Assembly: GCF_014803385.1 (NCBI RefSeq)
Contig: NZ_JACYFC010000002.1
Span: 62,001 to 126,000 of the forward strand
Direction of reading: 5' to 3'
Origin: Marinomonas colpomeniae
Lineage (GTDB): Bacteria; Pseudomonadota; Gammaproteobacteria; Pseudomonadales; Marinomonadaceae
DNA: 64,000 bases
Positions 43,813 through 45,445 of the stretch are shown one piece after another. The notes under the pieces were generated by a model that saw nothing but the letters and a program-made list of their open reading frames with translations, was not told the origin of the DNA and searched no databases. A program made the translations under genes and the position numbers. Position 1 is the first letter of the stretch; each line of letters begins with the position of its first letter.

Positions 43813-43970
43813 AGTGAAATATTTCAAAAAAAATTTGAAGAGAGGATCAAATTAAGCCGAAAGACATAATTGTTTTGAAAGGGCCTGCCCCTTTAGGACG
43901 AATAATAGTGATGAGATAACAGACGAACGATTCAATCAGACTCGTTTATCGTACAAACTCGAAGCAATAA

Positions 43971-43996
43971 AAAAAGAACATGGAAATGTTCTTTTT
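43971..43996. terminator. Terminator, 11-bp perfect stem, downstream of the integron cassette
   Basis: AAAAAGAACAT-GGAA-ATGTTCTTTTT with A- and T-tracts on both sides. On the minus strand it lies 15 nt past the cassette's attC boundary and would end cassette transcription before pstS. Confidence 0.88.
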
Positions 43997-44011
43997 GGAG
44001 AAATTCTACAG

Positions 44012-44116
44012 CCTCAACGCCGTTGTATGGGGCTGGAGTGCAGTTGCTGATTTTTGTGGTTTCCACCACAAAAAGCGGCAACGAAACGGAAGTCCCGCAT
44101 GACAACCTTGTTAGGT
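44012..44116 (-). other. attC: Integron attC recombination site
   Basis: Minus strand, 105 bp, starting 2 nt after the stop of the ORF at 44119. Outer inverse core ACCTAAC (44116-44110) fits RYYYAAC and is the exact complement of GTTAGGT at the cassette's other end. Inner arms: GTTGTcATGcGGGaCT (44106-44091) pairs with AGCCCCATACAAC (44034-44022), every base paired except three extrahelical bases (lower case), a hallmark of attC. The centre folds as GTTGC/GCAAC and a perfect 10-bp TTTTTGTGGT-GGAA-ACCACAAAAA hairpin. The 3' boundary is G/TTGAGGC at 44018/44017. Confidence 0.88.
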
Positions 44117-44652
44117 GATTACCCACGAGACACCCATTCAGAGACGATAGACCTTGCAAGCGTGAATTCAGGTAACTTCGTATTAGAGGCGATAATTCTC
44201 TCTGCCTCAGATAATTCAGTATTTTTCAGTTTGCACCTATTAAAATAGCTTTTAAGCTTTTGTTGGTGTCGTTTGATAGGCCTATCAGCCCCAGCTAAAA
44301 TCCAATACACGATACTAACAAATGCATCTTCATGCTTGTCCTCCAGCCTTAAAATATTGGCCATATCTTCATGGACGCTGGCGTCAAGCGCTAGAGCTTG
44401 ATTAGCAGTAAACCCTGATCGGTTAGCGTGCTGCATATAGAATGATTTTTGCTCTTGATAATGACCCCAGGCCTTATCATATTCCTTATTTTTAACCGCC
44501 GCCTTAGCCTTGTGGCCAGCCTCAGCAGCCTTGCCAAGAAAATCATTTCTTTGGAAATCGTCCATTACCTCCTTAGCGCAATTTTCAAACTCTAAGTCAG
44601 GTTTTTGCTTTTTCCTTTTGAATATACTGAACAATCCCATTCGATCACCTAA
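44018..44652 (-). mobile_element. Single integron gene cassette
   Basis: 635 bp between G/TTAGGT (cut between 44653 and 44652) and G/TTGAGGC (between 44018 and 44017). It holds one ORF that fills the cassette, with 12 nt before its ATG and 2 nt between its stop and attC, as is normal for cassettes. No second attC follows; the chromosome resumes with a terminator. Confidence 0.82.
44119..44640 (-). CDS. Integron cassette protein of unknown function
   Basis: 173 residues from ATG 44640, which has AGGTGA 5 nt upstream; the AGGT is part of the integron core site. An ATG at 44727 in the same frame would cross the attI junction and is rejected. The protein is soluble and mostly helical. It opens with a short hydrophobic-basic stretch, MGLFSIFKRKK, then helical-repeat-like segments (NKEYDKAWGHYQEQKSFYMQ, LALDASVHEDMANILRLEDK). 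I do not recognise a functional family. TPR-like helices suggest protein binding, as inference only. Confidence 0.75.
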   Translation of the reverse strand: MGLFSIFKRKKQKPDLEFENCAKEVMDDFQRNDFLGKAAEAGHKAKAAVKNKEYDKAWGHYQEQKSFYMQHANRSGFTANQALALDASVHEDMANILRLEDKHEDAFVSIVYWILAGADRPIKRHQQKLKSYFNRCKLKNTELSEAERIIASNTKLPEFTLARSIVSEWVSRG

Positions 44653-44720
44653 CAGCTTAATAGTGCGCATGCGCGTTATCATTTTTATCCCCAGCGCGTT
44701 ATCTCTGCGCTGAAAACCCT
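44644..44720 (-). other. attI: Candidate attI site
   Basis: Core site GTTAGGT (minus strand, 44653-44647) is preceded by two direct repeats of GATAACGCGC (44680-44671 and 44703-44694), spaced 23 bp. Known attI sites carry accessory direct repeats bound by IntI beside the core site, so the layout fits. The region shows no attC-like fold, which argues against a preceding cassette. Confidence 0.6.
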
Positions 44721-44749
44721 TATCCATTGATATTAAAAGACTTTTTATT

Positions 44750-44777
44750 TATCTACCAGTACAAACGCGCAAATCAA
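44750..44777 (-). promoter_or_regulatory. Candidate cassette promoter Pc
   Basis: On the minus strand TTGATT, a 16-nt spacer and TAGATA preceded by TGG (extended -10) point toward the cassette, starting transcription about 100 nt before its ORF. This is the usual place for Pc, between intI and attI. Prediction by eye only. Confidence 0.4.
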
Positions 44778-44827
44778 TGATTATTTTTTAGACAAAACGA
44801 GCAAGGAACTGGCTATCGAAAAATAGA

Positions 44828-44843
44828 CTGTGCATTAATACCG
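44828..44843 (+). promoter_or_regulatory. Degenerate LexA-like box before the intI remnant
   Basis: CTGT-GCATTAAT-ACCG matches CTGT-N8-ACAG at seven of eight fixed positions. intI promoters in other integrons are LexA-controlled. It lies 32 nt upstream of the intI start codon. A match this short could be chance. Confidence 0.35.
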
Positions 44844-44874
44844 TTTTTTTAATTTTATCCACAAGGAGTGTGTG

Positions 44875-45033
44875 ATGCCATTGACCCCTTCTCTTAACTT
44901 AATTAGAACCGAACTTCACTTACGCAGTTATTGCTTAAAAACTGAAAAGCCTTATCTGTATTGGATTAAGTACTTTATTCATTATTAACCGCTCAAACAT
45001 CCAGCGGAAATTATTCGATTCAATCCCGATTGA
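44875..45033 (+). pseudogene. intI: Integron integrase remnant (N-terminal fragment)
   Basis: A good ribosome-binding site (AAGGAG, 44863-44868) precedes ATG 44875. The 37 codons to the stop at 44986 encode an IntI-like N-terminal SAM domain: ELHLRSYCLKTEKPYLYWIKYFIHY. After the in-frame TAA the same frame continues PLKHPAEI, which matches the family's next segment (xxxKHPxEM), so the stop is a mutation inside a former gene. Similarity ends near 45030 and the catalytic domain (R, HxxR, Y) is absent. Direction is opposite to the cassette, as in a real integron. Without an integrase the cassette is immobile unless one acts in trans. Confidence 0.78.
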
Positions 45034-45445
45034 ACGACTACACGGAATTTATTAGTCATTGAATGGCGCTCTCTCTTCAATCCAATAGTGCTAATCCATA
45101 CCTTACGTAAAATATCGACTAGGAAGTGTTCGTCGTATCTATAAGCAATGAGACGTTAAAGATCTAAAAGAGACCTTTTGGTTACTTTTGCGGCTCTGGG
45201 GAAAAGTTACCCGCCCAGCAGGGCGGAAAGAGGCGAGTTGATACAAAGCGCTTGAACGAAGCATAAAGCCCTAAATACTATAAAAAACCTCTTTTAGAGC
45301 ACTTTTATACAAAAAAACCACCTAACGCCCTCTTGTAGCCCACTGAAACATTCACATGCGTGGCGATATCCCATAAACTAGCGATCCGGTTTTTTACTCT
45401 TTATTTCATTATTTAGATGGCATCTTAAAAAAGACTGGGAAAACA
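45034..45445. other. Gene-free region after the intI remnant
   Basis: About 410 bp with no credible gene. It holds the hairpin-rich repeat unit described separately (45164-45297). Sequence before it (45034-45160) has stops in all frames that I followed and resembles nothing I know; it may be eroded integron or transposon DNA. Confidence 0.5.
45164..45297. repeat. Hairpin-rich element with terminal inverted repeats
   Basis: CTAAAAGAG (45164-45172) and CTCTTTTAG (45289-45297) bound a 134-bp unit. Inside are two adjacent hairpins: GGTTACTTTT/AAAAGTTACC (45180-45211, one mismatch) and CCGCCC-AGCA-GGGCGG (45211-45226). The motif looks like a dispersed extragenic repeat of the kind common in marine gammaproteobacteria, but other copies were not seen in this window. 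Confidence 0.5.

Follow-up and report, generated by a model that had tools for sequence, protein, structure and literature searches.

A decayed one-cassette integron in Marinomonas colpomeniae and the dispersed attI copies of its genus

The integron locus between pstS and dctQ

The window, by which we mean the whole stretch of 64,000 nucleotides analysed here, carries a compact set of integron parts between pstS and dctQ. On the minus strand they read in the order attI, core site GTTAGGT (44653-44647), gene (44640-44119) and attC (44116-44012). The attI occupies 44646-44848 (minus strand), and beyond it lies the 5' remnant of an integrase gene, intI, on the plus strand (44875-45008), abutted by a dispersed repeat of about 250 bp (45009-45262, plus strand). 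An earlier note on this DNA had proposed an attC, a core site and an intI fragment at this place. All three parts are real, as judged by a covariance model, by the complementarity of the core and by an alignment of IntI. A hairpin with a T-rich tail (AAAGAACATGGAAATGTTCTTTTT) is located at 43967-43999, between pstS and the attC end, and at another locus (L134) an attC is followed by a hairpin resembling this one. An Rfam search gave two weak matches, neither of which reached the gathering cut-off.

The attC was identified with R1, a covariance model of 31 attCs of the genus from which the window site was excluded. With E values up to 10, R1 found a single and clear match in the 64-kb window, at 44012-44116 on the minus strand (34.4 bits, E = 7.2e-6). 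Its R'' box is ACCTAAC (44110-44116, minus strand) and its R' box is GTTGAGG (44012-44018), which differs at the final base from the attC R' consensus, GTTRRRY. As had been claimed, the R'' box is the exact complement of the core GTTAGGT at the junction of cassette and attI (44647-44653, minus strand), which is the core of its own cassette. The window therefore has at least one attC-bounded cassette in register. The R1 model has three helices with 89% of cells paired and strong covariation, which is partly built in because candidates were selected by the pairing of their ends. The attC folded alone as DNA gave z values of -2.3 and -5.1, which are only suggestive.

The cassette gene (44119-44640, minus strand) encodes a protein of 173 amino acids, which is predicted to be all-helical. 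Its AlphaFold model is helical with a mean pLDDT of 76. No credible family was found for it in Pfam, NCBIfam, PADLOC or the PDB sequences, and a structure search gave nothing at E ≤ 0.001, several of the weak top matches being TPR proteins. A scan for homologues, which covered one genome per species and detects close relatives only, found three, in a Porticoccus MAG (73% identity over the whole protein), in Pseudomonas toyotomiensis (72%) and in an alphaproteobacterial MAG (48%). In the Porticoccus MAG, R1 places an attC upstream of the homologue (E = 3.9e-7), the cassette start GTTAGGTGATCGAATGGG is identical to the corresponding 18 bases in the window, and the attC behind the homologue is weak (E = 0.19). 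Judged from these flanks, the same gene occurs as a cassette elsewhere. The Pseudomonas copy, read by eye, starts with GTTAGGT and ends with TCACCTAACA, and had no R1 match; the R1 search found no attC at the alphaproteobacterial copy. It means that this cassette gene travels across orders, with a distant relative in another class.

The window attI is homologous to the attIs beside intI genes, and is 84% identical over 183 bases to the one beside intI in genome G022. Its homology stops about 25 bp short of the start of the intI remnant, so that attI and intI are neighbours here as well. The "attI-like repeats" described earlier are an attI without about 95 bp that are found in the copy at C9:538k of the same genome; the gap falls between two GCGCATGC-like repeats.

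Positions 44880-45008 (plus strand) align with residues 3-45 of a full-length IntI of the genus at 67% identity (E = 1e-13), with one in-frame TAA at 44986-44988. The integron-integrase family TIGR02249 matched the open 37 amino acids only at E = 9e-4, and at 4.8e-4 in the whole-genome search. The intI fragment of the earlier note is thus an integron-integrase N-terminus as far as 45008, and from about 45009 onward it is the dispersed repeat. At E = 1e-8 the window genome holds just two N-terminal pieces of intI, and no functional gene. The attC and IntI searches together bear out the view of a decayed one-cassette integron that has lost its working integrase.

A degenerate LexA-type box, CTGTGCATTAATACCG (44828-44843, assigned to neither strand), probably marks the lost integrase promoter, as it stands at the same place as the box in intI-bearing units. 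There, a box of the form CTGTATATTT(A/G)TACAG, which we take to be bound by LexA, lies between attI and intI in five of the five full-length-intI units read (including that of G006, whose intI has a stop). Five of the six units that retain an intI remnant also have the box, and its loose form occurs in 7 of 60 intI-less units.

Copies of attI in the window genome and across the genus

When the window stretch 44640-45240 was searched against its own genome, 25 matches were obtained, with attI, intI and repeat pieces counted apart. After sorting there were 15 attI positions at 14 loci, the window included. They are located on contig C8 at 107k (the window) and 601k, on C9 at 538k, 410k, 46k, 147k, 315k and 207k, on C10 at 82k and 26k, on C11 at 13k, and on C1 at 798k and 799k (one locus), 837k and 1010k. 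The copies at C9:207k and C10:26k are without the core end, and the former is a weak match of about 95 bp. Direct R1 searches (E up to 0.5, in part up to 0.1) found at least one attC at 12 of the 14 loci, and none at C9:410k and C9:207k. In a genome-wide attC search, resting on 150 of 987 first-look candidates, 17 of the 18 matches listed were at attI loci and the other was a partial match at C10:163k; the window attC was not among the matches listed. The locus had been taken for a sedentary relic with one stranded cassette, and this description does not hold for a genome with so many attI positions.

Several of these loci have recognizable genes. At C9:538k (L005:5908-8088), an Eco29kI-like restriction enzyme, a C5 methyltransferase and an ORF of 86 amino acids lie beside the attI and two attCs. 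At C9:410k (L060:4421-8283), a Gabija GajA/GajB pair starts about 30 bp past the degenerate end of the attI, with no attC found. At C1:1010k (L274:5897-10557) a DUF2326 protein and an Abi_alpha protein are encoded and a neighbouring product matches an ABC-3C domain weakly, and at C1:799k (L275:5700-5999) a ParE-type toxin gene lies a few bases from the attI stretch.

The attI of G022, which lies beside a full-length intI, was used as query against 48 genomes of the genus. It matched 47 of them at E = 1e-3 and 35 at E = 1e-30 or better. At least five matches were found in 27 of the 48 genomes, the most being 18 among the matches listed; these matches are pieces, of which one attI can yield several, and the number of candidates scored was at most 15 in most genomes. 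In 12 genomes a match lay 40-50 bp from a full-length intI, and the sequence is therefore an attI. Among 115 sampled genomes of the order (with up to six candidates scored in each), four genomes of the genus and four others matched, the latter with one or two stretches each of 27-33 bp. As a control, the stretch before the intI of G043, from another family, was single in its own genome. A plasmid search gave no attI match.

The integrase gene itself is rarer. Full-length intI was present as 19 genes in 17 of the 48 genomes, with two genes apiece in G008 and G064 and one gene, that of G006, with a stop. In 14 of the 48, G009 among them, no intI match was obtained at E = 1e-8. It means that attI platforms occur where the enzyme does not.

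The extent of the scattered unit was determined with a similarity profile of 65 units not beside a full-length intI, taking a full-length unit of G007 as reference. Similarity is 0.6-0.9 per 20 bp up to about 300 bp and then falls to background ahead of the intI start. In the intI stretch, 62 of the 65 units score 0.41-0.66 (background about 0.55), and the other three, the window, C9:538k and C10:82k, score 0.76-0.93. By this profile, the scattered unit is an attI of about 300 bp which stops before intI, and not a whole integron. One search suggested query position 241 as the right end of the module, and this was rejected, as other alignments disagree.

Cassettes are held in register by these copies, including those without intI. 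We read 60 further stretches from 17 relatives, picked among the G022-attI matches listed. Most attI copies are alike as far as GCGCATGCGCACTATTAA..GTTA, with 0 to 5 mismatches in those whose end was located, and diverge beyond it. In 51 of 63 units, the 3.5 kb downstream contain the reverse complement of the unit's own 7-base core; a swapped-core control gave a mean of 12.3 and a maximum of 22 of 63 in 500 draws. This count excludes one unit with too little downstream sequence and 20 of 84 pattern hits without BLAST support in that orientation, some of which seem to be genuine units, an inverted repeat in attI having obscured their orientation. A same-strand attC (E up to 0.1) lay within 7 kb in 66 of 71 attI units, with 0 to 8 attCs found per unit; this count took 71 of 80 pattern hits (at most three mismatches), and 31 of those attCs are in R1. 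A start codon borne by attI (GCGC-ATG-CGC) was considered and rejected: 14 of 62 frames run for at least 60 codons, and a fairer control gave 16 against 10 and 13 of 62. The spacers of tandem units showed no clear boundary that would place attI inside cassettes.

The repeat of about 250 bp is associated with attI. Of its 55 copies in the loci read, 34 are found no more than 1.3 kb from an attI, on its integrase side, where all of them share one orientation and are about 11 times as dense as elsewhere in the loci. The repeat also occurs in intergenic DNA without attI. Positions 45077-45262 were considered as a part of the integron and rejected; a related stretch is present at L104, a pstS-dctQ site without attI, and the segment was therefore taken as a separate repeat.

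Cassette turnover and sharing between platforms

The stretch from pstS to dctQ is interrupted, not conserved, in relatives. Among 30 dctQ loci (the best 30 from 48 genomes), an attI stands beside dctQ in three, those of the window genome, G031 and G063; in 19 pstS is in reach with no attI, and eight have neither. The three platforms at this site have no common cassette stretch longer than 70 bp. At lpxH-dnaQ, 2 of the best 30 loci have an attI and one has a 72-bp piece, and at ilvH 1 of the best 30 has an attI and another a 29-bp piece. The intergenic DNA of pstS-dctQ and lpxH-dnaQ aligned too poorly to reveal target-site duplications.

Over five shared platform sites and 18 pairs, the cassette side had nothing common in 10 pairs and something in 8, of which two shared over 700 bp and the others 49-237 bp. 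This count omits L240 (the fourth member of one site) and the pairs L061/L213, L230/L243, L237/L241 and L233/L242. The clearest case is L227/L244, from G018 and G006: the flanks have 95% identity across 3.1 kb and 91% across 2.2 kb, the attIs are 78.9% alike, and the cassettes have nothing in common.

Cassettes bounded by attCs are shared between platforms in one clear pair within a genome and in one between genomes. The first is L214/L215 of G009, with a common cassette of 523 bp (99.8% identity), each copy of which has both of its ends no more than 8 bp from attC ends. The attI pairs of the G009 platforms are 83.4, 84.2 and 98.0% identical over 300 bp, the first value being that of L214/L215, and only this pair combines an old split of the attIs with a fresh cassette. 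L215 and L217 share stretches of 350 bp (99.1%) and 543 bp (99.6%), and here the platform itself may have been duplicated, because the attIs are 98.0% identical; L215 has an extra cassette between two that are common to L217, and the two platforms differ in their first two cassettes. The second pair is L236/L247, from G067 and G006, with a common cassette of 546 bp (91.6%) at different sites, the attIs being 81.8% alike. Within G006, G007, G013, G018 and G031, which have a full-length intI and several platforms read, no attC-bounded cassette was shared (at least 88% identity and 180 bp). G007 has one internal match of 340 bp, which is not bounded by known attCs.

Interpretation and comparison with known systems

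We consider it probable, from sequence comparison, that these loci are scattered attI platforms which an integrase has loaded in trans. The window locus would then be a dead platform, made up of attI, one cassette and the first 45 or so codons of a divergent integrase. The attI module of about 300 bp, usually without intI, would have been copied to many intergenic places in the genus, and each copy would serve as a landing site for cassettes, loaded in trans from a surviving intI. This suggests that integrons in these relatives may function as a network of scattered sites instead of a single array. The platforms of the window genome and their genes (restriction-modification, Gabija, ABC-3C/Abi-type, toxin and unassigned genes) are probably frozen, because intI is gone from that genome. 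A wider model is a distributed integron, in which one integrase works in trans on a network of attIs (about fifteen in the window genome) and attI itself, some 300 bp long, amplifies as a non-autonomous element and seeds new landing sites, often along with the orientation-locked repeat on its integrase side; we are evenly divided on whether it holds. Counting against loading in trans, no enzyme that could have moved the cassettes is seen in G009, the genome with the clearest sharing, and no internal sharing of cassettes was found where full-length intI is present and several platforms were read.

Under another explanation, every dispersed site derives from its own complete integron, duplicated or acquired, which subsequently lost its intI, the cassettes having entered earlier and nothing acting in trans. 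The 5' ends of intI kept at the window, C9:538k and C10:82k would fit it, as would the two full-length genes each in G008 and G064 and the absence of intI matches from G009. L214, L215 and L217 of G009 also keep the intI start, followed by other sequence that is largely common to them, and some dispersed attIs are thus descended from intI-bearing ones. However, 62 of 65 units are near background in the intI stretch. In the attI tree, attIs of the same genome cluster (36 changes against 49.5 when shuffled; 0 of 200 shuffles as low), and five intI-less attIs of G007 group apart from its intI-linked attI (ultrafast bootstrap 97; SH-aLRT 71, under the 80 mark). It seems that copies which had lost intI then multiplied inside individual lineages, and we regard separate integrons as a rather unlikely source of the platforms.

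A single isolated decayed integron would fit the locus itself, where all parts are present and in order, but the 15 attI positions in the same genome refute the isolation, and this possibility has almost nothing left to it. Least credible of all is a promoter-bearing repeat upstream of intI, unrelated to integrons and adjacent to cassettes by chance: these genomes have many intergenic repeats, of which the 250-bp one is tied to attI, but the cassettes begin at the core and have complementary R'' boxes, the attCs covary (partly from the selection of candidates by end pairing), and the window attC fits a model built without it.

The usual picture, to our knowledge, is of a single attI per integron, with poor expression of the cassettes distant from it; clusters lacking an integrase are interpreted as debris. 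Were many attIs spread over a genome and loaded in trans, numerous first positions would be open to incoming cassettes simultaneously, and some of the clusters now catalogued as integrase-less debris may be functional platforms. The origin and spread of attI would also become testable. The attI loci of the window genome hold a restriction-modification pair and Gabija, ABC-3C/Abi-type and ParE toxin genes.

The sedentary chromosomal integron of the Vibrio type has a divergent intI, an attI, attC cassettes and a LexA-type box, with one long array at one attI. The genus has the same parts, including the box in all five full-length units read; unlike the Vibrio type, its attIs are many and separate, with 0 to 8 attCs each, and most units read are without intI. 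Clusters of attCs or single attCs without an integrase are named CALIN and SALIN in the terms of IntegronFinder. The platforms resemble them in having attC-bounded cassettes remote from an integrase, and differ in that most clusters start at a recognizable attI, as 17 of the 18 attC matches listed in the window genome do. Cassettes can also insert at secondary chromosomal sites (attG), which would likewise scatter them in the chromosome; here, in contrast, the landing site is a conserved attI of about 300 bp and not a short genomic site. Integron mobilisation units flanked by MITEs are known as well, and share with our loci a short repeat tied to integron parts, but the repeat of this genus is mostly one-sided, being present on the integrase side in 32 of 71 cases against 4 of 65 in the first 950 bp beyond the last attC.
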